DNA of 64,000 bases, taken from positions 1,674,001 through 1,738,000 of the forward strand of contig NC_012804.1 of assembly GCF_000022365.1 (NCBI RefSeq), written 5' to 3'. Under the pieces are notes generated by a model, which was given only the letters and a program-made list of their open reading frames with translations, did no database searches and was not told the origin of the DNA. The translations under genes and the position numbers were made by a program. Of the stretch, positions 32,698 to 46,625 are shown one piece after another. The stretch's first letter is position 1, and each line of letters opens with the position of its first letter. Source of the stretch: Thermococcus gammatolerans EJ3 (lineage in GTDB: Archaea > Methanobacteriota_B > Thermococci > Thermococcales > Thermococcaceae).

Positions 32698-32785
32698 GCG
32701 GGGGTTGCCGAGCCTGGTCAAAGGCGCGGGATTTAGGGTCCCGTCCCGCAGGGGTTCCGGGGTTCAAATCCCCGCCCCCGCACCA
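32698..32785 (+). tRNA. tRNA-Leu (anticodon TAG)
   Basis: 88 nt including encoded CCA. Acceptor GCGGGGG pairs with CCCCCGC; long class II variable arm (GTCCCGCAGGGGTTC region); TTCAAAT T-loop; anticodon loop TTTAGGG gives TAG, decoding CUA. TATA-like TTTTTTAAG lies just upstream at about 32,668. It differs from the tRNA-Leu at 46505-46592 at only two positions. Confidence 0.96.
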
Positions 32786-33261
32786 GAAACTTTTGCCAAG
32801 CAAAAGTTTCATCAAAGTTCGTGATTCCTTTTTGAAGAGTAGTTTTTGAGTGGATTTCCCCCAAATTGCTCCTTTGACTGAACGAATTCATTTAAAAGCA
32901 CCTTTTAGCTTGGGTTCAAGCTTTTTTGCGCTCTGGTGGGGCGCGGTTCAGGTAGAACCCGCGCATAAAAAGCCTTAACTTGGTGAATTCAAACTTTCAA
33001 TAGCGGGCTTGATTTTGAAATCCTATTACAAAGGAGCCCAAAAGAGAAATCACGAACTTCTGACCAAACTTTTCCCAAAAGCTTGCCTGCGAGTGATCCA
33101 CTCAAGAAAGAGCCGGGCGCCAATATTGATGTGGAAAGGCAGGTTTTTGGGTAAAGGCCCCTGGGAGAGCATTTTAGCGGGGAGCCACGCCTCTTGTGAA
33201 AGTTTTCTAAAGCTTCGCGGCTCACCATGACAAAACCAAAATTTGTTTGAAAGAGTAGAGG
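32786..33261. repeat. Non-coding block of nested inverted repeats (no credible gene)
   Basis: A ~476-nt gap between tRNA-Leu and tmk. It begins with a perfect hairpin (GAAACTTTTG/CAAAAGTTTC, 32786-32810). A roughly palindromic unit follows, centred near 32,945: 32815-32826 pairs with 33048-33059 (12 bp), 32868-32876 with 33029-33037 (9 bp), 32884-32890 with 32984-32990, and the core hairpin GCGCGGTTC/GAACCCGCGC at 32941-32964 has one bulge. A crossing 10-bp pair joins 32846-32855 and 33096-33105. Open frames of 73-79 codons exist on both strands across 32989-33230 but lack RBSs. I read it as a degenerate mobile or dispersed repeat, or a structured RNA. Confidence 0.6.
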
Positions 33262-33888
33262 CTAAATCCCCGAGAGGATTTCCTGCTCGACGAGACCCAC
33301 TATGTCCCGATGGATATCCTCTATGCTGTTTTGAGCGTTCACTATCCTTATCTCGGGAAACATCTCGGCCAGCTTGAGGTAGTTCTCCCTGACCCTCTTC
33401 TGAAGCTCGACGATTTTGTCAAACTCTGTTTTGATACTCCTCCCGTTTATTCTCCTCATGCTCTCCTTGACCGGGAGGTCTAGCAGAACCACGAGATCAG
33501 GTCTGACAGCGAACCTGTTCAGATCTATGAGCCACTGGAGGTCGAGCCCCCTAGCCCACTGGTATGCGAGGGATGAGTAGAAGTACCTGTCCGAGATGAC
33601 AACCTTTCCCGATTCCAAGGCTGGCTTTATCAGTTTGTGAACATGTTCAGCCCTATCGGCTGCAAAGAGCAGGGCCTCAGCCTCGTGGCTTATTCTAGCC
33701 CCGTCGATTATACCCTCCCGCCCCCCTGTGAGAACGAGCTTCCTTATCAGCTTACCAAAGGCTGTGTCAGTAGGCTCTTTGGTGAGGATCACTTCGTATC
33801 CTTTTTTTTCAAACCACTTTGCTAGCAGCTTTGCCTGCGTTGACTTACCGGCGCCATCGATGCCCTCAATGACCACGAATATACCCAC
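33262..33888 (-). CDS. tmk: Thymidylate kinase
   Basis: 208 residues from a GTG at 33888 with GGAGGTG 6 nt upstream; an upstream GTG at 33897 overlaps the RBS. P-loop [11 protein letters not shown] (about 6-16), the DR(Y/H) motif ISDRYFYSS (about 97-105), and a lid with [11 protein letters not shown]. Phosphorylates dTMP to dTDP. Monocistronic, divergent from nothing nearby; its 3' side faces the inverted-repeat block. Confidence 0.95.
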
Positions 33889-33955
33889 TGCTTTCACCTC
33901 CAGAACGGAAGTAAGTGGGGGGTGTGGTTTTTAATGGTTGTCATGAAGGAAAAAC

Positions 33956-34663
33956 TCAAAGGTTCTTCTTCAGGTGCTCGAGGAGGGTCCACATGCTACC
34001 GAACTCGAGCTCTTCACCGTTAGCGTGCACCTCAACTACACCATCCGGCCGGAACCTCAGGCCGAGGTCATAGTTCTCTTTCCTGAGCTTGTGGAGGAAC
34101 ACCTCCTTAGGTTTTGGAGGCAGGTAGCTGGTCATCATGTCGTTTATTATGTCAACCTCCATTCCAAGGGCCTCCGAGAGTCTCGGGAAGAAGAGAACCG
34201 CCGGTGTGTTCATGGCGTCCACGAGAACCCTCTTCTCCATCTTAAACCTGTACTTCTTGAGCAGATCGTTCATAAAGTCGTCGAGGGCGTTGGGATAGTA
34301 AACGGTCGCCCCGATGTCGCTTGGATGGGCCTCAATAAAGCTCCTGCTGTCAAGGATGGTCTTTATCTCATCGACGTCAAGACCGCTTACTTCAACGCGT
34401 ACCCCTCCGTAGTAGTACACATAGGCCAGTGGAAGACCCTTCTTGTGGGCGAAGTCCTTGAGCGCTATTAAGGGAATGAGGCGAACGTCCATTATAGTCG
34501 ATCCTGTACTGACTATGCCAACCACCATCGCCCTCTTGCCGTACCTCGAGAGCGCTCTCCCATCTCTCCCCACTATCGTCGTCCCGTGGGCGACGGTTCC
34601 GATGGCCCTCCCTAGAAGAGCCAGCTCCTCTGGATTGAACTTTTCGGAATAATAAAGCTCCAT
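33956..34663 (-). CDS. Short phosphomannomutase-like protein (single-domain remnant)
   Basis: 235 residues, about half the length of a phosphohexomutase. It has the family-like strand GTTIVGRDGRALSRYGKRAMVVGIVSTGSTIMD (seen from about residue 24) but lacks the TASHNP serine loop that carries the phosphoryl group. The second half (VLVDAMNTPAVLFFPRLSEALGMEVDIIND) resembles domain 2. Start ATG at 34663 follows GGAGGTGGTGTC; 14 more codons upstream are in frame but unsupported. It is divergent from pck and shares the TGM at 34678. Thus it may be a regulatory or sugar-phosphate-binding protein, not a mutase. Confidence 0.7.
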   Translation of the reverse strand: MELYYSEKFNPEELALLGRAIGTVAHGTTIVGRDGRALSRYGKRAMVVGIVSTGSTIMDVRLIPLIALKDFAHKKGLPLAYVYYYGGVRVEVSGLDVDEIKTILDSRSFIEAHPSDIGATVYYPNALDDFMNDLLKKYRFKMEKRVLVDAMNTPAVLFFPRLSEALGMEVDIINDMMTSYLPPKPKEVFLHKLRKENYDLGLRFRPDGVVEVHANGEELEFGSMWTLLEHLKKNL

Positions 34664-34677
34664 GACACCACCTCCTG

Positions 34678-34694
34678 TATCACTGTGAGTGTTA
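34678..34694 (+). promoter_or_regulatory. TGM-like operator upstream of the pck TATA boxes
   Basis: TATCAC-TGTGA-GTGTTA, 11 of 12 matches to TATCAC-N5-GTGATA. For pck it lies 60-110 nt upstream of two TATA candidates (CTTAAATATTC at about 34,748; TATTTTAATAC at about 34,789), the arrangement known for Tgr-activated gluconeogenic genes. It also lies 15 nt upstream of the divergent mutase-like start, where it could act oppositely. Confidence 0.7.
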
Positions 34695-34828
34695 CAGCTT
34701 TTCAAGGTTTTCCCAGGCCAATACAGTAAAACCTGTTGGTTGATGTCCTTAAATATTCTTCGGAGTACTTAACCTCGCCGGCAAACTATTTTAATACACT
34801 GGTCAAGTGGGTGAAGGAGGCGACAAAA

Positions 34829-36706
34829 ATGGACGCCCTTGAAAAGCTTAGGGAACTCCTTCCAGAGGAGCAGTTTGAGAAGGTTAAGGCAATCGACAAC
34901 CCCGAGCTTCACGCTTTTTTGGCGGAGTGGATTGAGTGGCTCGAGCCGGGCAAGGTTTTCGTCTGCACCGACAGCGAAGAGGACGAGCAGTACGTCCGCT
35001 GGAAGGCCCTCTACTACGGCGAGGAGAAGATGCTCGAAACGCCAAACCACACCGTCCACTACGACAACTACTACGACCAGGCGAGGGACAAGGCCAACAC
35101 CAAGCTCCTCGTCCCCGGCGGAAAGGAGATTCCCTTCCTCAACACCAAGGACCGCGACGAGGGGCTGAAGGAGATTAAGGAGCTCATGAAGGGTGTCATG
35201 AAGGGCAAGGAGCTGTTCATCTGCTTCTTCGTTCTCGGGCCGAAGAACTCGATATTCACGATTCCAGCCGTCCAGCTCACCGACTCGGCCTACGTAGCCC
35301 ATTCCGAGTTCATACTCTACAGAAAGGGCTACGAGGAGTTCAAACGCCTCGGAAGGAACGCGAAGTTCTTCCGCTTCGTCCACAGCGCCGGAGAGCTCGA
35401 CGAGAGAAAGACCAGCAAGAACCTCGACAAGAGGAGGATTTACATCGACCTTGTGGACGACACCGTTTACTCCGTCAACACCCAGTACGGTGGCAACACC
35501 ATCGGCCTGAAGAAGCTCGCCTTCAGGCTCACCATCCAGAAGGCAGTTAAAGAGGGCTGGCTCAGCGAGCACATGTTCCTGATGAGGGTCAACGGTCCGA
35601 ACGGCAGGAAGACCTACTTCACAGGTGCATATCCAAGCATGTGCGGAAAAACTTCCACCGCCATGATTCCCTGGGAGAACATAGTCGGAGACGACCTCAC
35701 GTTTATCCTTCCGGTCAACGGCGTAGCGCGTGGTGCCAACGTCGAGAAAGGTGTTTTTGGCATAATCCAGGGCGTTAATCCAGAGGACGACCCGATAATC
35801 TGGAAGGTCCTCCACTCTCCGGTCGAGATAATCTTCTCCAACGTCCTCGTCAAGGACGGAAAGCCCTACTGGAACGAGATGGGCATCGAGATTCCTGACG
35901 AAGGAGAAAACCACAGCGGAAAGTGGTGGCGCGGGAAGAAGGACAAAGAAGGAAACGAGATACCGCCGAGTCACAAGAACGCGCGCTTCACGGTTTCGCT
36001 TGAGCACTTCCCGAACGTGGATTTGGAAGCCCTCGAGAACCCGTGCGGTGTGGAAGTCGGCGGAATGATTTTCGGTGGCAGGGATAAGGACACCTGGCCC
36101 CCGGTGAGGGAAGCCTTTGACTGGAAGCACGGTGTTATAACGATGGGCGCCTCGCTTGAGAGCGAGACGACGGCGGCGACCCTCGGAAAGGAAGGCGTTA
36201 GGGCCTTCAACCCGATGGCCATACTCGACTTTATGAGCGTCCCGCTCGGTGAGTACATCGAGAACTACCTGAGGTTCGGCGAGAAGCTGAGGAAAACGCC
36301 GAAGATATTCGCCGTCAACTACTTCCTCCGCGACGAGAACGGCAAGTGGCTCAACCACAAGCTCGATAAAGCGGTATGGCTCAAGTGGATGGAGCTTCGC
36401 GTTCACGGCGACGTCGATGCCATCGAGACGCCGATAGGCTACATTCCGAAGTACGAGGATTTGGCAAGGCTCTTCAAGGAGGTTCTCAACAAGGAGTACA
36501 GCAGAGAAGACTACGAGAAGCAGTTCACGATAAGGGTTCCAGAACTCCTCGCGAAGATTGAGCGCATAGAGAAAATCTACCGCGAGAAAGTGAAGGAAGT
36601 TCCAGAGGAGCTCTTCCAGGTTCTTGAGGAAGAGCGCAGGAGGCTCCTCGAGGCCAGAGAGAAGTACGGGGACTACATCAGCCCGTTCGCATTTGAAAGC
36701 GACTGA
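34829..36706 (+). CDS. pckG: Phosphoenolpyruvate carboxykinase (GTP)
   Basis: 625 residues. Kinase P-loop YPSMCGKTSTAMIPW (the reactive Cys of GTP-type enzymes is present), substrate loop and metal ligands in the central region, FGGRDKDTWPPVREAFDWKHGV, and NYFLRDENGKWLNHKLDKAVWL near the C-terminus. It makes PEP from oxaloacetate for gluconeogenesis, or the reverse. ATG at 34829 follows GAAGGAGG; the frame opens earlier, at a TTG at 34736, inside the promoter. Neighbours are the short mutase-like gene and glgP, both under TGM motifs. Confidence 0.97.
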   Translation: MDALEKLRELLPEEQFEKVKAIDNPELHAFLAEWIEWLEPGKVFVCTDSEEDEQYVRWKALYYGEEKMLETPNHTVHYDNYYDQARDKANTKLLVPGGKEIPFLNTKDRDEGLKEIKELMKGVMKGKELFICFFVLGPKNSIFTIPAVQLTDSAYVAHSEFILYRKGYEEFKRLGRNAKFFRFVHSAGELDERKTSKNLDKRRIYIDLVDDTVYSVNTQYGGNTIGLKKLAFRLTIQKAVKEGWLSEHMFLMRVNGPNGRKTYFTGAYPSMCGKTSTAMIPWENIVGDDLTFILPVNGVARGANVEKGVFGIIQGVNPEDDPIIWKVLHSPVEIIFSNVLVKDGKPYWNEMGIEIPDEGENHSGKWWRGKKDKEGNEIPPSHKNARFTVSLEHFPNVDLEALENPCGVEVGGMIFGGRDKDTWPPVREAFDWKHGVITMGASLESETTAATLGKEGVRAFNPMAILDFMSVPLGEYIENYLRFGEKLRKTPKIFAVNYFLRDENGKWLNHKLDKAVWLKWMELRVHGDVDAIETPIGYIPKYEDLARLFKEVLNKEYSREDYEKQFTIRVPELLAKIERIEKIYREKVKEVPEELFQVLEEERRRLLEAREKYGDYISPFAFESD

Positions 36707-36776
36707 GTTCTCTTTTCTCCTAATTTATTTTCGTCATCTGCCGAGCGGCAGGGTTTTAAAGGTCGGGACAGCTTAG

Positions 36777-36793
36777 TATCACTAAGGATGATA
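36777..36793 (+). promoter_or_regulatory. TGM operator downstream of the glgP TATA box
   Basis: TATCAC-TAAGG-ATGATA, 11 of 12 matches to TATCAC-N5-GTGATA. It starts about 17 nt after GGTTTTAAAGG (TATA, about 36,752-36,762) and ends 13 nt before the start codon, so it spans the expected transcription start. This placement fits repression of glucan breakdown by Tgr. Confidence 0.72.
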
Positions 36794-36806
36794 CACGGTG
36801 GTTGCC

Positions 36807-39287
36807 ATGACCTATAGCGTTGAGGATGCAATAAGGGAAAAACTCCCATACCCGCTCGGAGAACTCGTCGATCTTGCCTATAACTACTGGTGGAGCTGGA
36901 ACAGAAGGGCCACCAAGCTCTGGGAGTACATAGACCCGGAGCACTGGCGGAGTTATAAGAACCCTGTTAAACTGCTTTTTGACACTCCAGAAGAGCGATT
37001 CAGGGAGCTCGTGAAGGATGATGACTTCATGAACCTCTACGAGCTCGTTATTGATCAGTTTCAGGCCTACATGAACCCCAGCTCGACTTGGTTCTCGACG
37101 AACTACCCCAAGTGGGACAAGCCGATCGTCTACCTCTGTATGGAGTACGGCATAAGCAAGAGCCTTCCGATCTATTCCGGCGGCCTCGGAATCTTAGCTG
37201 GAGACCACGTAAAAACGGCCAGCGACCTTGGGTTGCCCTTCATAGCCGTAGGCCTTCTCTACAAGCACGGCTACTTTAGGCAGGAGATAGACGAGAACGG
37301 CAACCAGATCGAAGTCTTTCCGGAGTACAGGCCGGAGGAGATGCCGATCAAGCCAGTCCTTGACAGGAACGGCGAAAGGCTCCTCATAGAGGTCCCCTTA
37401 GAAGATAGAACAGTTTACGCAAGGGCCTTTGAGGTTCGGGTCGGCAGGGTGAAGATTTACCTCCTCGACACGGACGTTCCCGAGAACAGCCCGGACGACA
37501 GGACGATATGCGATTATCTCTACAACGCCGAGATGGACAAGAGGATAAAGCAGGAGATACTCCTCGGCATCGGCGGGATGAGGCTCCTGAGAGCATTGGG
37601 AATAGAGCCTGGTGTCGTCCACCTCAACGAGGGACATCCTGCCTTCGCGAACCTCCAGAGGATTGCATGGCTTATGGATGAGGGCCTCACCTTCACCGAG
37701 GCGCTGAGCGTCGTCAGGGGGACGACGGTCTTCACAACCCACACGCCCGTCCCTGCAGGCCACGACAAATTCCCGATTGAAGAGGTCCGAAAACGGCTCG
37801 CCAGGTTCCTTGAAGGTAGAGAAGAACTCCTCGAACTCGGTAGAGAAGGGGATCATCTCAACATGACCCTCCTCGCAATAAGAACGTCGAGCTACGTGAA
37901 CGGCGTCAGCAAGCTGCATGCGGAGGTCAGCAAGAGGATGTGGCAGGGGCTCTGGCCGGGGGTTCCGCTCAACGAGATACCGATCGAGGGCATAACCAAC
38001 GGAGTTCACACCATGACATGGGTACATAACGAGATGAGGAAGCTCTTTGACCGCTACATCGGCAAGGTCTGGCGCGAACACACGAACATTGAGGGAATAT
38101 GGTACGCGGTTGAAAGAATACCAGATGAAGAGCTCTGGGAAGCCCACCTTGAGGCCAAGAGGCAGTTCATCGAGCTACTCAGGAGAAAAGCGATCGAAAG
38201 GAACCAGCGGCTCGGCATAGATGACCCAATACCGGCTATGGACGAGAACGCCCTGATAATAGGTTTCGCGAGGCGCTTCGCCACTTATAAACGCGCCACC
38301 CTGATACTCAGTGATCTTGAGAGGCTGAAGCGCATACTCAACGATCCGGAGAGGCCGGTCTACATAGTCTTCGGCGGAAAGGCCCACCCAATGGATGAGG
38401 GCGGTAAGGCCTTTCTCCGGAGGGTTTACGAGGTCAGTAAAATGCCAGAATTTCGGGGGAAGATCTTCATTATTGAGAACTACGACATGGGTAGCGCGAG
38501 GCTCATGGTCGCCGGCGTTGACGTCTGGCTTAACAACCCGCGCAGGCCCCTAGAAGCCAGCGGAACGAGCGGAATGAAGGCCGGTCTTAACGGTGTTCTG
38601 AACCTGAGCATCTACGACGGCTGGTGGGTTGAAGGCTACAACGGAAAGAACGGCTGGGTCATCGGTGAGGAAAGCACTGAGCCAGAAACCGAGGAAGACG
38701 ACCCAAAGGACGCCGAAAGCCTCTACCGCATCCTTGAGGATGAGGTAATACCAACCTACTACTCCAACCGTTCCAGGTGGATCTACATGATGAAGGAGAG
38801 CATAAAGAGCATAGCCCCCCGCTTCAGCACCCACAGGATGGTGAAGGAGTACATGGACCGCTTTTACTCCAAGGCCATGAGCAACTACATATGGCTCACA
38901 AGGGACAACTACAGAGGCGCCAGAGAAATAGCCGCGTGGAAGGAACGAGTGATGAAGGCATGGGACAACGTTGAAATAAGGGACGCAAGTGTGGAGGGGG
39001 ACAACTTGAGGGTCAGGGTTTACCTCGACGGCCTCTCCCCCGAGGATGTGAAGGTCGAGCTCTACTATGGAGTCAGGGCTAGGGGTTATGAGATCGAAAA
39101 GCCCCACATCGTTGAGCTGAGGCATCCAACGAGAGAGGGTGATGAGTGGGTCTACACCTACGAGGGAAGTGCCCTGAGGCACCTCGGGGATCCCTGCTGG
39201 CACTACGCCATCCGCGTGCACCCCCACCACGAGAAGTTGCCCCACAGGTTCCTGCTTGGCCTCGTGAAGTGGAGAGGCCTTGATTGA
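36807..39287 (+). CDS. glgP: Alpha-glucan (maltodextrin/glycogen) phosphorylase
   Basis: 826 residues, the archaeal GT35 length. Motifs: CMEYGISKSLPIYSGGLGILAGDH (in part, about 115-135), VVHLNEGHPAFANLQR, TTHTPVPAGHDKF, GFARRFATYKRA, and the PLP-binding stretch EASGTSGMKAGLNGVLN (about 577-593). It releases glucose 1-phosphate from alpha-1,4 glucans in the cytoplasm. The C-terminal ~100 residues are a beta-rich extension. Start ATG at 36807 with GGTGG RBS; the GTG at 36798 overlaps it. Downstream of pck but with its own promoter and TGM. Confidence 0.95.
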   Translation: MTYSVEDAIREKLPYPLGELVDLAYNYWWSWNRRATKLWEYIDPEHWRSYKNPVKLLFDTPEERFRELVKDDDFMNLYELVIDQFQAYMNPSSTWFSTNYPKWDKPIVYLCMEYGISKSLPIYSGGLGILAGDHVKTASDLGLPFIAVGLLYKHGYFRQEIDENGNQIEVFPEYRPEEMPIKPVLDRNGERLLIEVPLEDRTVYARAFEVRVGRVKIYLLDTDVPENSPDDRTICDYLYNAEMDKRIKQEILLGIGGMRLLRALGIEPGVVHLNEGHPAFANLQRIAWLMDEGLTFTEALSVVRGTTVFTTHTPVPAGHDKFPIEEVRKRLARFLEGREELLELGREGDHLNMTLLAIRTSSYVNGVSKLHAEVSKRMWQGLWPGVPLNEIPIEGITNGVHTMTWVHNEMRKLFDRYIGKVWREHTNIEGIWYAVERIPDEELWEAHLEAKRQFIELLRRKAIERNQRLGIDDPIPAMDENALIIGFARRFATYKRATLILSDLERLKRILNDPERPVYIVFGGKAHPMDEGGKAFLRRVYEVSKMPEFRGKIFIIENYDMGSARLMVAGVDVWLNNPRRPLEASGTSGMKAGLNGVLNLSIYDGWWVEGYNGKNGWVIGEESTEPETEEDDPKDAESLYRILEDEVIPTYYSNRSRWIYMMKESIKSIAPRFSTHRMVKEYMDRFYSKAMSNYIWLTRDNYRGAREIAAWKERVMKAWDNVEIRDASVEGDNLRVRVYLDGLSPEDVKVELYYGVRARGYEIEKPHIVELRHPTREGDEWVYTYEGSALRHLGDPCWHYAIRVHPHHEKLPHRFLLGLVKWRGLD

Positions 39288-39446
39288 GGAAGTCACCTGG
39301 GTTACTATTTTACCTTTTTATCCGCTTTGTGGGCATTGCTTTGTTACAAACTGTTTCATTGTGCTGTTCAATTTATGCGATAGGAAAGGCAAGGATTTTA
39401 AGTTCAGATGACCCATAAGTTTGAGAAATTTCCAGGGGGTGTCCTG

Positions 39447-40735
39447 ATGGATCAAATTAAAAAGTGGACCCTGTACCTGATGGTGCTGGTAGCAGGTTTC
39501 GCGACTGGAATAGGGACGATAGGACTGTTCCCACAGATGTGGCTGAAATATGGCATCACGGGACTGGCACTCCACGCGGTGTTCTTGGCCATACTGACTT
39601 ATCTGGCAATCCTCGAGGCGGAGAAGGTCATGAGATCTGGCTACTATTTCACGGAACTGTACACTAAAGTTTCGAGAAAACCGGGGATGATACTGGCGAT
39701 TTTCGCGGTCGGTGTGATGTTTCTCTCCTACTACACCGCTAACACGGGTCTCGTGCTCCTCTCGCCGGTCTTGGGAACTGGAGCCGTCGGTAGGCTCATT
39801 GCAAAACTCATAATGATCGCTTTGACCTTGGTCGTCATAACCCGCGCCAAGGAGAAGACATTCACAATAATGGCCATAGGAGCTTTTATCCTCGTGATCC
39901 TCGTTCCCATTCTGGTACTTCTCCTCAAACCCAGGTTCCCGAGAACGCAATGTTTCTGAGCATAGCCAAGAACATGCTCACTGCCAGAAAACCGATCTCC
40001 CTTGAGATGCTTCGTGCGGCCGCTGAGCGCGCCCTTTACGGCGTCGGCTTGGGTTTTGGATTCTATCTAATGCTCGGTAGTTTCATCAATGAGCGCTTCA
40101 ACCCCAAGCTCATTATTGGAACCGGTGTCTTCATCCAGTTCATAATAGGCCTCCTCTCAACCCTTGCCGTTATCTACGGGGTTACACCGTACAGGCCTGA
40201 GGAGTTCCTTATCTACGCCAACGGGGGAGAAGAGCAGGCAATAACCCTTATGGGGGACCTGCCCGAAATACTCTCAAACCACCCGATGTTGCTTGCTTTT
40301 CTGGGCCTGACCATATTCATGGCCGGACTAACCAGCCTCCTACCCGCGGCCGAGATCGGGGTGCAGATAACGGAATCGCTTATGAAGTTCGGCAGGTCAA
40401 AGGCGGCACTCTACTTCATGGGCATAGTTACTGTCCTGGGAATCCTCGACTCCCCGCCCAACATTGCCGATATGTTCCTCAAGGCCGTTACAACGTCCCT
40501 CCTGCTCACGTCTATCTTCGAAGCGTATCCGATAGTGATCGGCAAGGAAAAACCCGGCGCAATTGACCTAGCCGTTCTCGTGGTATCCGTGACACTCTTC
40601 ATTGCGGGGTTCATAGCGCAGGTGCACCACGACATAAAGCTCGGTGGCATTTACTATGCGTCAGTAGTGCTCGCACTGTTCATCGGTCTGCTCGGAATAA
40701 TGGGAGAAAAGATAGTCCCGCAGGGACCGGAGTGA
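39447..40735 (+). pseudogene. Sodium:neurotransmitter (SNF/LeuT-fold) transporter split by a frameshift
   Basis: Two open frames carry the two halves of one transporter. The first (39447-39959, RBS GGGGGTGTCCTG) has the LeuT-TM1-like FATGIGTIGLFPQMWLKYGITG and helices 1-5. The second (39950-40735, 261 residues) resumes with the TM6-like GVGLGFGFYLMLGSF and continues to the end. The second frame is -1 relative to the first, overlaps it by 10 nt, and its ATG has no RBS. The joined length, about 435 residues, is normal for an archaeal SNF member. It is therefore a frameshifted gene, an assembly error, or a recoding event. The shift lies between roughly 39,900 and 39,950. TATA-like GATTTTAAG lies upstream of 39,408. 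Confidence 0.7.
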
Positions 40736-42451
40736 TCACTTGTGGGCAAAGATCGCCCGGACCTTTCCATCTTTTACCTCATCTATTCTCACGAAGCCGA
40801 AGCGCTCGAACTGGACGATGTCATCAACCTTAACGTCGGCATCGCTTTCAAGGAGCCCCTTTCTGATGATTAGCTCGTCCCCCTCCGGAACCCAGACCTC
40901 GCAGGGCTTGCCCTCAGTGACCCAGTGAACCATCCTCCACCTGTTTTTCTTGGCAGTTTCGTAGTCAACACTGTGGAACCTCGCCTTAATACCGTCCTCG
41001 CCCACCTCAAGGATTTCGACGTTGAAGAGGTCCTTCAGGCGGACGAAGTTCCCCGGCTTGAAGAGCTCCATGTCGTCCCTGGAGACGTAGACAGGCTTTC
41101 CTGGGACGAACTTGAGCCTCCTAACGCCCCTCTCCGGATGGTCTGGATGGAGCGGAATCTCGGCAACGAACTCCTTGGCCCCCTCTATGTACATCGGAAC
41201 CGGGTCAGCGACGAAGAAGTAGCGGTTCGCTATCGGCTCTATTATGCGTCTGTTTATGGCAGCGAGGTTGTCCCAGCTAACTGTGGTGTCACTTCTCTTC
41301 AGACCGACCTCGATGATTAGCTCCCTTATCGCCTCGGGCCTTATTCCACGCCTCCTCAGGGCCCTAATCGTTCCGAGCCTCGGGTCGTCCCAGCCGAGGT
41401 ACTTGCCCTCCTCTATTCCCTTCCTCGTCTTGGACTTGCTTAGGATAACCCCCTCGATGCTCAGCCTGCCGTGATGAACCGTAACCGGGTACTCCCAGCC
41501 GAGATACTCATAAACGTACCTCTGCCTCGTCTCGTTCTCGGCGTGCTCCTGTCCGCGGAAGATGTGAGTGACGCCGAGCTCGTGGTCGTCTATGGCAGAT
41601 GCGAAGTTGTAGAGGGGCCAGACGCGGTACTTGTTGCCAGTCCTCGGGTGGTTGGGGTTGTCTATGATTCTCAGAGCGGGCCAGTCCCTGACAGCGGGAT
41701 TGGGGTGTTTTAGGTCGGTCTTTATTCTGACGACAGCTTCACCCTCCTTGTACTCTCCGTTCAGCATCTTCCTCCAGCGTTCGAGCTGAACCTCAACCGG
41801 CTCGTCCCTGTGCGGGCAGGCTATTCCCTTGTCCCTTAACTCGCGGAACTTCTCAGGCGGGCAGGTACAGACGTAGGCCTTGCCCATCTTTATCAACTTT
41901 TCAGCGTAGTCGTAGTATATCTCAAGCCTGTCGCTCGCTATGTGTATCTCGTCAATCTTGAAGCCGAGCCACTCAAGGTCCTCCTTAATCCACTCGTAGA
42001 AAATCGGCTCCGGCCGTTTTACCTTGGGGTCGGTGTCGTCAAAGCGGAGTATGAACTTGCCGTCGTACATCCTCGCGTACTCGTGGCTCAGAATAGCGGC
42101 CCTCGCGTTTCCAAGGTGGAAGGCACCGTCGGGGTTAGGGGCAAAGCGGGTGACGACCTTTCCCTTCTCCGCCCTGGGAAGCGGGGGAAGGCCCTTCTTC
42201 TCTTCCTTCTTGGCCTTCTTCTCCTCAAAGAATTCGGGGTAAATCTCCCTCAGCTTCGCCTCCTGCTCCTCAAGGGAGAGGGCGTTTACCTTCTCAACTA
42301 TCTCGTTCACGAGCGGGATTATCTCCTTTGCCCTCGGCCTCAGCTCCGGGTTCTCGCCGAGAACCTTACCTATGACCGCCTTTGGGTTTGCCTTACCCTT
42401 GTGGGTGTAGGCGTTGATGAGCGCGTACTTCCAGATCAGCCGCTCTACCAT
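40736..42451 (-). CDS. gltX: Glutamyl-tRNA synthetase (archaeal type)
   Basis: 571 residues. An N-terminal ~100-residue archaeal extension, the class I HIGH variant RFAPNPDGAFHLGNAR (about 100-115), IDDHELGVTHIFRGQEH, KMSKS variant ILSKSKTRKG (about 330), and the beta-barrel anticodon domain of the eukaryote-like GluRS/GlnRS type. Archaeal GluRS charges both tRNA-Glu and tRNA-Gln, the latter then amidated. ATG at 42451 follows GGTGATGTGA. The stop is 1 nt past the convergent transporter gene. Confidence 0.97.
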   Translation of the reverse strand: MVERLIWKYALINAYTHKGKANPKAVIGKVLGENPELRPRAKEIIPLVNEIVEKVNALSLEEQEAKLREIYPEFFEEKKAKKEEKKGLPPLPRAEKGKVVTRFAPNPDGAFHLGNARAAILSHEYARMYDGKFILRFDDTDPKVKRPEPIFYEWIKEDLEWLGFKIDEIHIASDRLEIYYDYAEKLIKMGKAYVCTCPPEKFRELRDKGIACPHRDEPVEVQLERWRKMLNGEYKEGEAVVRIKTDLKHPNPAVRDWPALRIIDNPNHPRTGNKYRVWPLYNFASAIDDHELGVTHIFRGQEHAENETRQRYVYEYLGWEYPVTVHHGRLSIEGVILSKSKTRKGIEEGKYLGWDDPRLGTIRALRRRGIRPEAIRELIIEVGLKRSDTTVSWDNLAAINRRIIEPIANRYFFVADPVPMYIEGAKEFVAEIPLHPDHPERGVRRLKFVPGKPVYVSRDDMELFKPGNFVRLKDLFNVEILEVGEDGIKARFHSVDYETAKKNRWRMVHWVTEGKPCEVWVPEGDELIIRKGLLESDADVKVDDIVQFERFGFVRIDEVKDGKVRAIFAHK

Positions 42452-42510
42452 TCACATCACCGGAAAAAGAAGAGGCGGGGAGGTTATAAAGGTTAAAGTT
42501 AAGGAAAGGA

Positions 42511-43863
42511 TCACTCGGCAAAGGTCAGTATCTTGAGGTTCACCGGCCTTCTGACGACGTTGGCCTTCCTCGCCCCGACGAGGTAGCGGACGTTGTTCTC
42601 GCTGACTATGTCTATGAGCCTCTGAGTGATTATCCCGTTGAAGACTATGGCGTAAATGTTATCCCTGGTAGAGATCGTCGTGAGCAGATCCCTAACAGGA
42701 ATCTCGGCGATGACGTTCATGTTCTCGTCAAGGAGTATGGCCGTCTGCTCCTTCTTAACGCGCTCTATGAACTTCTCGAACTTTTCTATCTCCGGGCTCT
42801 TTGCCTGCTGGATGGGCCGGATTATTTTCTCTTCCCTCGGCTTCTGCTCCACGGGCTGGGGCTTTGGCTCGTGCTTTGGAGCGGGCTTGACCTCCTTGGA
42901 GGGCGCAGTTCTTTCTTTTTCTTTGAGAATCTCGTAGAAGTTCTTGCCCTTGTGGAACATCTCCGTTATGACTTGCTCGGCCGGGATCTTGCTCCTCAGG
43001 GCCTTGACTATCTCCTTCTTGGTGAGCTCTTCAACCTCCTTGCCCTCCGGGGCGCGGGCAACATAGTCCACATCTGCCACCTGGAGGAGCTCCTTGAGGA
43101 TGAGCTCTCCACCCCGGTCGCCGTCGGTGAAGGCGGTAACTATTCTCTCCTTGCTGAGCTTGATTATTGTTTCCGGAATGGATGTGCCTTCAACGGCTAT
43201 CGCGTTCTTTATGCCGTGCTTGAGAAGGTTGAGAACATCCGCTCTGCCCTCGACGACGATGATCGAGTCGGAGAACGGGACGTGCGGACCAGCTGGAAGC
43301 TTCTCAGGGCCATACTCTATAAGCTCCTTAGCACGGACGGCCTTCTTGACCTCTTCGGTGAGCTCCTGGGTCTCTGGAATCTCCTCCTCCATGAGGGTTT
43401 CGAGTATCTCCTTGGCCCTCTCGATGATGTACTTCCTCTTGGTTGCCCTGACGTCCTCGATGCGGAGAACCTTTATGTGGGCCTCGGCCGGGCCCACGCG
43501 GTCGATGGTTTCAAGGGCAGCGGCGAGGATCGCAGTTTCGACCCTGTCAAGGCTCGACGGGACCGTTATCGTTCCGTAGGTCTTTCCTGCCTTTGTGTGA
43601 ACCTCAACGCGAATCCTGCCGATCCTTCCGGTCTTCTGGAGTTCCCTCAGGTCGAGGTCATCCCCGAGAAGGCCTTCGGTTTGTCCAAAAATAGCACCGA
43701 CAACGTCGGGCCTCTCAACGACACCGTTCGCCTCAAATTCTGCGTAGATAATATACTTGGTCGTTCCAAATTCATCCTTGGCTGACATATTACCACCCCT
43801 TATTCTTTCTGCCTTCCTCTTTTCGGACAAAATCTGATGCAGGACGTGCTTCTTCCTCTTCAT
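42511..43863 (-). CDS. dnaG: Archaeal DnaG-type primase (exosome-associated)
   Basis: 450 residues. Helical N-terminal domain, central Toprim domain with SIIVVEGRADVLNLLKHG (Glu) and FTDGDRGG (DxD), and a basic/Pro-rich linker (about 320-350). In archaea DnaG is mainly found with the RNA exosome and has weak primase activity. The ATG at 43863 overlaps the stop of the small Toprim gene (ATGA). A second in-frame start at 43788 (MSAKDEFG) follows a much better RBS, GGGGTGGTAAT, giving 425 residues. Both may be used; the N-terminal 25 residues are very basic. Confidence 0.93.
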   Translation of the reverse strand: MKRKKHVLHQILSEKRKAERIRGGNMSAKDEFGTTKYIIYAEFEANGVVERPDVVGAIFGQTEGLLGDDLDLRELQKTGRIGRIRVEVHTKAGKTYGTITVPSSLDRVETAILAAALETIDRVGPAEAHIKVLRIEDVRATKRKYIIERAKEILETLMEEEIPETQELTEEVKKAVRAKELIEYGPEKLPAGPHVPFSDSIIVVEGRADVLNLLKHGIKNAIAVEGTSIPETIIKLSKERIVTAFTDGDRGGELILKELLQVADVDYVARAPEGKEVEELTKKEIVKALRSKIPAEQVITEMFHKGKNFYEILKEKERTAPSKEVKPAPKHEPKPQPVEQKPREEKIIRPIQQAKSPEIEKFEKFIERVKKEQTAILLDENMNVIAEIPVRDLLTTISTRDNIYAIVFNGIITQRLIDIVSENNVRYLVGARKANVVRRPVNLKILTFAE

Positions 43864-44261
43864 TGAAACCCCTCCAACTGGGGGTCAGAAACGGAGACGA
43901 CCTTCATGTAGAGACCGTAAAGCTCCTCAACGCCTTTGATGTCCTTCTTTGCTATGCGCTTGAGTTCCCTTCTCGTCTCAACGTCCACCCGACACGGGTA
44001 GCCCTCGAGATAGGAAACAAGCTTTTTTGCGAGCTCTTCACCCTTCCTGTCGAAGTCAGTAAGGATCATGACCTCCCGGTAACGTGAGGCGATGAGAGCG
44101 ATTTCGGCAAGCGGTAAGCGTGATAGCCTTATTATCTCCGCTCTGACCCCCAGATTCCTCAGAGCCACCTCGTCTCGCAGGCCCTCCACGATGAGGGCAC
44201 CTTCAAACTCTCGCAGTTTCTCTATAAGCTCCAGGAATCTTTTATAGTTTTCGGCGTACAT
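43860..44261 (-). CDS. Small Toprim-domain protein
   Basis: 133 residues. GALIVEGLRDEVALRNLG carries the catalytic Glu, and VMILTDFDRKGEELAKKL gives the DxD of a Toprim fold (about 28-110). Little else is present, so it resembles RNase M5/OLD-type isolated Toprim nucleases. Start ATG at 44261 follows GAGGGCGTT; an in-frame TTG six codons earlier is possible. It overlaps dnaG by 4 nt, so both Toprim proteins are made from one message; a link to RNA processing or replication is inferred. Confidence 0.8.
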   Translation of the reverse strand: MYAENYKRFLELIEKLREFEGALIVEGLRDEVALRNLGVRAEIIRLSRLPLAEIALIASRYREVMILTDFDRKGEELAKKLVSYLEGYPCRVDVETRRELKRIAKKDIKGVEELYGLYMKVVSVSDPQLEGFQ

Positions 44262-44306
44262 AACGCCCTCGCTCACCAATACTTCGTGAAGTTAAAAGCT
44301 TTTGGG

Positions 44307-44645
44307 TCACGGTCTCAGCAAGAGCCAGAGGCGGTAGCTGCTTCTCCTGCCGAGTAAAATCGCAATCATTGGACCGATTACAAGTAGCGAAATTAGCGCA
44401 TTGCTTCCAATCTTGGAGTCCCTGAATACAGTCACGCCAAGAACAATGGCTAGCACAAAGCCGGCCAAGAACCCGATGAGGCCGTACGGGAGTGGACCAC
44501 CTAGGGCTGGTTTGATGGAAATCACGTAAAGAAGCCCCGCCATTAACAGGACTATTCCGGGCAATGTGAGGTCACCGGTGATGGCGTAGATGAAGAGGGC
44601 AGACACAACAACGGCCAAAGCAGGACCCACGTTTCTCATACCCAT
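44307..44645 (-). CDS. Small membrane protein, unknown function
   Basis: 112 residues with four predicted membrane helices (about 8-24, 28-45, 52-74, 82-98) and a basic, Arg-rich C-terminus (RRSSYRLWLLLRP). No recognised family. It lies 45 nt upstream of the Toprim-dnaG pair on the same strand and may be co-transcribed. RBS is weak; ATG at 44645 or 44639. Confidence 0.6.
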   Translation of the reverse strand: MGMRNVGPALAVVVSALFIYAITGDLTLPGIVLLMAGLLYVISIKPALGGPLPYGLIGFLAGFVLAIVLGVTVFRDSKIGSNALISLLVIGPMIAILLGRRSSYRLWLLLRP

Positions 44646-44683
44646 CGTACAAAGAATCGGCGTCAGGTTACAAAACCTTTTCG

Positions 44684-45958
44684 TTAGCAGACCGGGTTTA
44701 TACTACCATGATAACTCATCGGCTCCTCGTAGAACTCCTCTATCAGCTTCTGTAGCCTTTTTGAGAGCTCTATCTGAATCCCCCACGAGCCCTCGATTTT
44801 GCCTCTGGCCGCCATCCTGCCCAAAAAGCGCTTCATCTCCTCGCTCAGCGGACTCGGCTTGCACCGCGCCCAGGGGGTTCCGGGAAGGGGCATGAAGTAA
44901 TGGGCGCGAACCTTCCCACCCTTCCTCATGATCCACTCCATCAGCTCGATGCTCTTCCTCTGGCTTTCTGCTGTTTCGTTCGGCAGGCCCACGATGAAGT
45001 CAACGACGGGCTCAAAGCCGTATTCCACCATGTACTCTACCGCCCTCTTAACGTGCTCGACGCGATGAAGGCGGTGCATCGCTTTCAGCATGGCATCGTC
45101 CCCGCTCTGGGCACCGATGGCAAGCCTCCTGTTGTCGGCGTAGTCAATGAGGAGCTCAAGGGTCTCGGGTAAAACAAACTCGGGCCTGACCTCACTTGGA
45201 AATGTGCCATAGAAGAGCCTCCTTCCCTCCTTCCTGAGGGGCTGGAGGGCCCTGAGCAGGGCCTCGAGCTTGTTTAACTTGAGTATTGCACCTGGACTTC
45301 CGTAGGCGAAGGCGTTGGGGGTTATGTAGCGCATGTCCTTCATCCTCCTTGAATAGTGCACGATCTGGTCTATGGGCCTGTGCCTCATGCGGAAGCCCTT
45401 GATGTAGGGTGTCTGACAGTAGTAACAGCGAAAGGGGCAGCCCCTGCTTATCTCTATCGGAGAAATCAGACGGACACTCTCTGGGTACGGCGGGAAGCGC
45501 CAGAAGTCCTCTACCTTCGCGAAGCCGGTAAAGGTGAACTCGCCATTGAGGCGGAAGGCCAAACCCCGGATTTTTGCCAGCTCGGGCGTTATTCTGTAGC
45601 CAGTTCTCTTCAGGGTCGTTAAAAGGTTGTAGAGCACCTCCTCACCCTCACCAACGACGGCTATATCAAAGCCGAGTTGATTGAGGGTGTGCTTTGGCAT
45701 CGCTATTGCATGGTAACCTCCTGCAACGAGAAGCGCGCCTCTCTCCTTCAAAAGCTGGACTTCTCGCGGAAGGTTGCCCCAGATTTCCTCGGTGAAGAAC
45801 GAGTAGAGAACGACCTTCGGCCTCGCTCTTAGAATCTCTTTGAAGTCCTTCGTTATGAGTAGTTCGCTTAAATCGAACCCCTGACTCTCCAAGGCACCGA
45901 GAAGGTGAACGAAGGCGTTGTGGTTGCGCTTGGTCATCCTGACCGCTATTTCTGGCAT
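44684..45958 (-). CDS. B12-binding-domain / radical SAM protein
   Basis: 424 residues. Residues about 1-150 form a cobalamin-binding-like Rossmann domain (VVLYSFFTEEIWGNLPREVQ, LLVAGGYHAIAMPKHTL, FDIAVVGEGEEVL). The radical SAM core begins with SRGCPFRCYYCQTP, giving the CxxxCxxC iron-sulphur ligands (about 177-187), and includes AIGAQSGDDAMLKAMHR and DFIVGLPNET. It belongs to the archaeal family of lone B12/radical SAM proteins whose reaction is unknown. ATG at 45958; TATA GTTTTAAAC about 25 nt upstream suggests a short leader. Confidence 0.85.
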   Translation of the reverse strand: MPEIAVRMTKRNHNAFVHLLGALESQGFDLSELLITKDFKEILRARPKVVLYSFFTEEIWGNLPREVQLLKERGALLVAGGYHAIAMPKHTLNQLGFDIAVVGEGEEVLYNLLTTLKRTGYRITPELAKIRGLAFRLNGEFTFTGFAKVEDFWRFPPYPESVRLISPIEISRGCPFRCYYCQTPYIKGFRMRHRPIDQIVHYSRRMKDMRYITPNAFAYGSPGAILKLNKLEALLRALQPLRKEGRRLFYGTFPSEVRPEFVLPETLELLIDYADNRRLAIGAQSGDDAMLKAMHRLHRVEHVKRAVEYMVEYGFEPVVDFIVGLPNETAESQRKSIELMEWIMRKGGKVRAHYFMPLPGTPWARCKPSPLSEEMKRFLGRMAARGKIEGSWGIQIELSKRLQKLIEEFYEEPMSYHGSINPVC

Positions 45959-46028
45959 GGTCGAAAGCGCGGAAAGATGTTTAAAACGCTAACGGTTCAG
46001 AAATGAGTAGAAAAGCTAGAAAAAGCCA

Positions 46029-46232
46029 TCAGGTCCTGATGGCGAGCTTGATGTCCTCGGCCTTGACGGTCTTCCTGCCAGCGTGCCTGGCGAAGTCGTT
46101 AGCCTTCCTGGCGATTTCGATTGCGTACTCCTCGAGGTACTCGGCGAGGACCTTGGCGGCCTCCTCGCTGACCCTCTCAGCGCCAGCCTTCCTTATAAGT
46201 CTGTCAATTGGGGCAATCGGCAACTCGGCCAT
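46029..46232 (-). CDS. Archaeal histone (HMf/HTk family)
   Basis: 67 residues forming a minimal histone fold: [20 protein letters not shown], then [20 protein letters not shown], and [19 protein letters not shown]. The RKT and KAEDI motifs are characteristic. Wraps genomic DNA as dimers and hypernucleosomes. Start ATG follows GGAGGTGTGGGAA; the frame is open five codons earlier. Strong promoter GAAAGCTTTATATAG (46,276-46,291, minus), as expected for an abundant protein. Confidence 0.97.
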
Positions 46233-46275
46233 TTCCCACACCTCCATAAAGGGTTTTTCAGTATTCTTTTGGCCA

Positions 46276-46291
46276 TAGAAACTATATAAAG
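46276..46291 (-). promoter_or_regulatory. Histone gene BRE/TATA promoter
   Basis: Minus-strand GAAAG (BRE) followed by TTTATATAG (TATA), about 45-60 nt upstream of the histone ATG: a near-ideal archaeal promoter. Confidence 0.75.
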
Positions 46292-46386
46292 CTTTCGGTA
46301 AATTGGGGGCTGAAGGCGGCCGATATGGAAAATTGGCCGTGCCGTATTGGTAAGTGGAGTGAACAGCCGAAGGACAACAATGCTCT

Positions 46387-46456
46387 CACCTTAAGGTGTC
46401 AGAGAAATTGAGAAAGGGTGCCCCGGATAAGCAGTGGAAAATGAAAGATTATCCGG
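46387..46456. repeat. Palindrome and hairpin in the histone-tRNA gap
   Basis: CACCTTAAGGTG (46387-46398) is a perfect 12-bp palindrome. CCGGATAA (46423-46430) and TTATCCGG (46449-46456) form an 8-bp stem with an 18-nt loop. The 257-nt gap 46,248-46,504 otherwise holds no convincing ORF. Role unknown; it could be a terminator for tRNA-Leu (minus strand) or a small RNA. Confidence 0.4.
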
Positions 46457-46504
46457 CGTTACAGGGTTAGTTAACGCAAATCTTTCAAGAGTCAAGAAGG
46501 CCTG

Positions 46505-46592
46505 TGGTGCGGGGGCGGGGATTTGAACCCCGGAACCCCTACGGGACGGGACCCTGAATCCCGCGCCTTTGACCAGGCTCGGCAACCCCCGC
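46505..46592 (-). tRNA. tRNA-Leu (anticodon CAG)
   Basis: 88 nt including encoded CCA. Acceptor GCGGGGG/CCCCCGC, anticodon loop TTCAGGG (CAG, decoding CUG), long variable arm, standard T-loop. Two differences from the tRNA-Leu(TAG) at 32698-32785, which is in the opposite orientation. Confidence 0.96.
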
Positions 46593-46625
46593 GCAAGAGA
46601 TGGGAGGTGGCGGATGTTTATAAAT

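Follow-up and report, generated by a model that had tools for sequence, protein, structure and literature searches.

A one-base difference splits a transporter gene in the Thermococcus gammatolerans EJ3 genome sequence, probably through a recent deletion

Introduction

The genome sequence of Thermococcus gammatolerans EJ3 contains two overlapping open reading frames, ORF A and ORF B, that together resemble one membrane transporter. Is this a gene broken by mutation, an error in the deposited sequence, a gene whose break is crossed by the ribosome, or a pair of genes for two protein chains? A preliminary description made from the sequence alone took the two frames for the halves of one SNF-family transporter of LeuT fold, separated by a -1 frame change, and named recent mutation, sequencing error, and programmed recoding as possible causes. 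Here we compare the locus with its orthologues and weigh these explanations. The window is the whole 64,000-nucleotide stretch that was analysed (contig NC_012804.1, positions 1,674,001 to 1,738,000), and coordinates are numbered from its first base unless they carry the handle of a genome.

Results

Two overlapping frames encode one transporter

ORF A and ORF B lie in different frames of the plus strand, overlap by 10 bases, and make up the N- and C-terminal portions of one protein (Table 1): both match consecutive parts of the NCBIfam profile NF037979 ("sodium-dependent transporter"), and both align to the same single-frame orthologue in the nearest relative found (G020), which bears out the preliminary description. 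The halves score 192.3 and 251.6 bits (E-values 1.4e-56 and 1.4e-74, far beyond chance) and the intact orthologue 473.7 bits, the curated cut-off being 50 bits. The "sodium-dependent" of the name is annotation only, and sodium-coupled transport is a prediction.

Table 1. Features of the split transporter locus, in window coordinates.
Feature	Coordinates	Strand	Basis
Upstream neighbour, by its sequence presumably an alpha-glucan phosphorylase-like gene	36798..39287	+	order conserved in G020, G060, and G017 (ORF list; tblastn against G060 and G017; alignment to G020)
ORF A, N-terminal transporter portion	39447..39959	+	NF037979 positions 1-160 of 419; 87% identity to the G020 orthologue
Site where one base is missing compared with the G020 orthologue	~39926..39932	+	DNA alignment with L007; junction in protein columns
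ORF B, C-terminal portion of the same transporter, -1 frame	39950..40735	+	NF037979 positions 172-418 of 419; 92% identity to the G020 orthologue
Downstream convergent neighbour, presumably a glutamyl-tRNA synthetase-like gene	40736..42451	-	order conserved in G020, G060, and G017 (ORF list; tblastn; alignment to G020)

The start of ORF A is likely the ATG at 39447, which has a G-rich SD-like site 5 bases upstream and is conserved in the orthologues of G020 (L007) and G060 (L012); the mechanical list of open reading frames begins it upstream of this, at the ATG at 39408. ORF A closes with about ten out-of-frame residues and a TGA ending at 39959. The frame of ORF B, read from the ATG at 39950 to the stop at 40735, has been open since 39794, and both frames are thus open together from 39794 to 39959. 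For ORF B, a search for a good ribosome-binding site turned up just a 4-base SD-like match 13 bases upstream. By the hydropathy of the orthologue, five hydrophobic segments precede the break, which sits between segments five and six, and ORF B starts after the fifth, in keeping with the earlier statements that the second frame lacks a ribosome-binding site and TM1-5. In a LeuT-type protein, the boundary between segments five and six would be the border of the two repeats.

One base is missing relative to the nearest relative

In G020 the gene runs as a single open frame of 444 codons, flanked by the same two neighbours. Aligned to it as DNA, the window has exactly one base fewer, at about 39926-39932, and the gene is otherwise free of gaps; the two frames meet at this junction in the columns of the orthologue protein alignment. 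The frame change thus falls within 39,900-39,950, where the preliminary description had placed it, and the exact lost base is ambiguous to a few positions within 39926-39932.

In the portion of the window compared with G020, no coding frame break other than that in the transporter was established. More than 60% identity to the opposite side was reached by 32 of the 78 ORFs in G020 and by 31 of the 55 in the window, with three flags for the former and one for the latter. Flags at 34.7 kb and 20.4 kb were rejected as lying in stop-to-stop extensions past gene ends. A third further flag, at 46.2-46.6 kb, adjoins the tRNA-Leu at 46505-46592, beside which a G020 ORF of 137 codons matches window 46196-46590 in two frames.

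Synteny with G020 shifts near both tRNA-Leu stretches of the window, 32698-33084 and 46505-46593. Positions 12675-32794 align to G020 in one orientation and positions 33258-46600 in the opposite one; the two tRNA-Leu genes may thus mark the ends of an inversion.

The SNF name may hold as a distant kinship

The SNF profile of Pfam (PF00209; cut-off 27 bits) gave no match at E up to 10 for either half, for the G020 orthologue, or for five further orthologues. The SNF name of the preliminary description fails at this level and survives as an apparent distant link: a paralogue of about 30% identity (G001:C1:1177439) scores E 1.4e-31 against the G020 orthologue and, with its neighbours in frame, 41 bits against PF00209. 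This more distant paralogue appears to connect the NF037979 family to PF00209, and describing the transporter as SNF-like by a probable distant kinship seems fair. Profile comparison with SNF proteins was asymmetric: run one way it gave P 0.00024 over 323 columns, run the other way no match (reversed control, 0.24); two of the 16 SNF loci, L056 and L058, were dropped from it, having no frame with the motif sought. The genome that contains the window has its PF00209 match, a true SNF one, outside the window at G000:C1:1612522-1613889.

The LeuT fold, with its two inverted repeats of five helices, is a candidate assignment; hydropathy places five segments before the break, and a structure model from a five-row alignment reached a pLDDT of 43, too poor for a fold search. 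Searching the PDB by phmmer with the intact G020 orthologue returned nothing up to E 10, and the PHROGs gave no match.

Orthologues are intact in most relatives and missing in others

The orthologue is present in 49 of 61 genomes of the genus (E 1e-60 or better), and 47 of these 49 encode it in a single frame of at least 429 codons, the exceptions being the window genome and G060. When stop-to-stop frames were re-derived at 33 loci, 32 of them copies from other genomes (three represented twice), just the window locus itself (L006) and the G060 copy (L012) were broken. Six more orthologues, found in the family outside the genus, are open over 429-469 amino acids. Among the 54 other orthologues from the genus and family searches, none is split at the same place or encoded there as two separate proteins, the arrangement that the preliminary description had set against its own reading when it proposed a comparison of orthologues.

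The G060 copy (G060:C1:114203-115504, minus strand) is broken elsewhere, in its N-terminal half, by two frame changes: one base fewer and, about 150 bases on, one base more, with seven stops of the original frame between them and the neighbouring genes intact. This suggests repeated loss of the transporter. The orthologue is absent from 12 of the 61 genomes, including six of the 49 that are near-complete (by our count G001, G007, G008, G009, G018, and G034). Since these genomes do without it and the G060 copy is independently broken, the transporter gene is dispensable in the genus.

Both halves remain under purifying selection

Pairwise dN/dS against G020 is 0.061 in the N part and 0.054 in the C part, which is strong purifying selection in both, and 0.031, 0.033, and 0.015 in three neighbouring genes. 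Polarising the changes with G017 (L008) as outgroup assigned 11 to the window lineage and 6 to that of G020 (p 0.33, no significant acceleration), divided 3/2 in the N part and 8/4 in the C part, with three departures at strongly conserved columns in the window and one in G020; for the relative-rate count and the profile, L006, L012, and duplicate loci were left out. Unconstrained evolution would account for at most about 1-6% of the branch, a rough bound obtained by simple arithmetic rather than by fitting a model. The low dN/dS in both halves points to a change that is very recent or to a sequence error and, more broadly, the break would be either very recent, not real, or of a kind that did not abolish function.

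Deletion or error in the deposited sequence

A residual sequencing or editing error would leave the organism with an intact single-frame gene, and it would account for strong purifying selection in both halves, for the lack of any other lesion, and for the intact state of nearly all relatives; one assembly of the species was examined, in which the missing base may be such an error. The genome was sequenced at about tenfold coverage from BAC, 3-kb, and 10-kb libraries with phred/phrap/consed, and the available part of the genome paper gives an error rate below 2.4e-5, after which 48 remaining errors were edited, which leaves room for a few (PMC2718504). The same part of that paper states that there was no significant number of frameshifts (PMC2718504), and the loss site lies in three-base runs only, with no long homopolymer. 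A real loss is also plausible because the gene is dispensable and is broken again in G060. We regard an error in the deposited sequence, the chief rival to a deletion, as doubtful, although far from negligible; given the short runs at the site and the dispensability of the gene, a real deletion is somewhat more likely.

Recoding or two chains

Programmed -1 ribosomal frameshifting in the overlap would yield a full-length transporter, and several features are of the kind that it would produce: the direction of the frame change, the long stretch over which both frames stay open, and the continued selection on the halves, in a domain where -1 frameshifting is known from fucA1 (PMC8211752, as far as the available part of that paper describes it). 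However, the X-XXY-YYZ heptamer is absent from frame A across the whole ORF, the sole XXXYYY string in 39790-39965, at 39927, does not lie in that frame, three stretches folded as RNA (pseudoknot-free) had weak structure with z values of -1.28, -0.97, and -0.49, and no relative shares the two-frame arrangement. Of the three causes first put forward for the split, programmed recoding is thus unsupported, and we consider it very improbable, while the comparison favours recent mutation and leaves sequencing error possible. One study describes bypass at short repeats of at least three bases in a laboratory system (PMC3812077), so low-level leakage across the junction might nevertheless occur.

Equally improbable is translation of each ORF into its own subunit, one with five membrane segments and one with the rest, coupled via the overlap and forming a working transporter. 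The break does fall between the fifth and sixth hydrophobic segments, and re-initiation is conceivable because the ATG at 39950 and the TGA of ORF A overlap. Yet this ATG is a methionine codon found at the same place in the intact G020 gene and has no good SD site, and no relative encodes two proteins divided at this point. We regard the position of the break between segments and the overlap of ATG and stop as coincidence.

Discussion

The gene differs from its nearest relative by one base, its orthologues are intact, and its two halves are still conserved. The explanation that we find probable is a recent deletion: a normal, dispensable single-frame gene for a sodium-dependent-type transporter would have lost one base near 39926-39932. 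Translation from 39447 would then yield a truncated product that contains the first five membrane segments and ends at 39959, and the remaining coding sequence, 39950-40735, would be stranded in the -1 frame, lacking a proper ribosome-binding site. Loss of the transporter in this strain would be the likely result, and we infer both that the organism itself carries the deletion and that function is lost. Against the deletion stands the fact that the halves bear no sign of decay, which an error or retained function also predicts. On the whole, the locus holds an ordinary frameshift, in a gene readily lost within the genus.

That the gene works despite its break, either by the ribosome slipping back one base at an unrecognised site or by separate halves, five segments and the rest, assembling into a two-chain transporter, is in our judgement very unlikely. 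A two-chain transporter, if true, would offer an experiment of nature on whether the two repeats can be synthesised separately. If the gene was instead disrupted by a recent deletion, as we prefer, then for annotation the EJ3 reference genome has one disrupted transporter gene at this locus, to be checked by resequencing. The available parts of the T. gammatolerans literature on frameshifts, RNA-seq, and transporters or pseudogenes do not mention the gene, and neither do those of the literature on programmed frameshifting in Thermococcus and recoding in Sulfolobus.

Set beside known systems, the locus resembles the NF037979 family in that the two halves align in succession to the profile, with scores well over its cut-off, and differs from it in having two frames where the examined orthologues normally have one. 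In its layout it is like fucA1 of Sulfolobus solfataricus, where, in the part of the paper available, overlapping ORFs are likewise described with the second in the -1 frame and most relatives full length (PMC8211752). The -1 programmed frameshift of fucA1, the one well-studied case in archaea, however, comes with an A-AAA-AAT slippery site together with a stem-loop and rare codons, whereas in the window we found no slippery site and weak RNA structure. A further parallel is the chitinase locus PF1233/PF1234 of Pyrococcus furiosus, as described in the accessible portion of its report (PMC3575233), in which one inserted nucleotide splits the gene, as was confirmed by sequencing a fresh strain. 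That case concerns an insertion in a chitinase that was resequenced and tested for phenotype, while the window has a one-base loss in a transporter known from the deposited sequence. In both, however, a one-nucleotide change leaves an otherwise single gene as two ORFs in one species, the two species belonging to the same order, and the halves are still highly similar to an intact relative.
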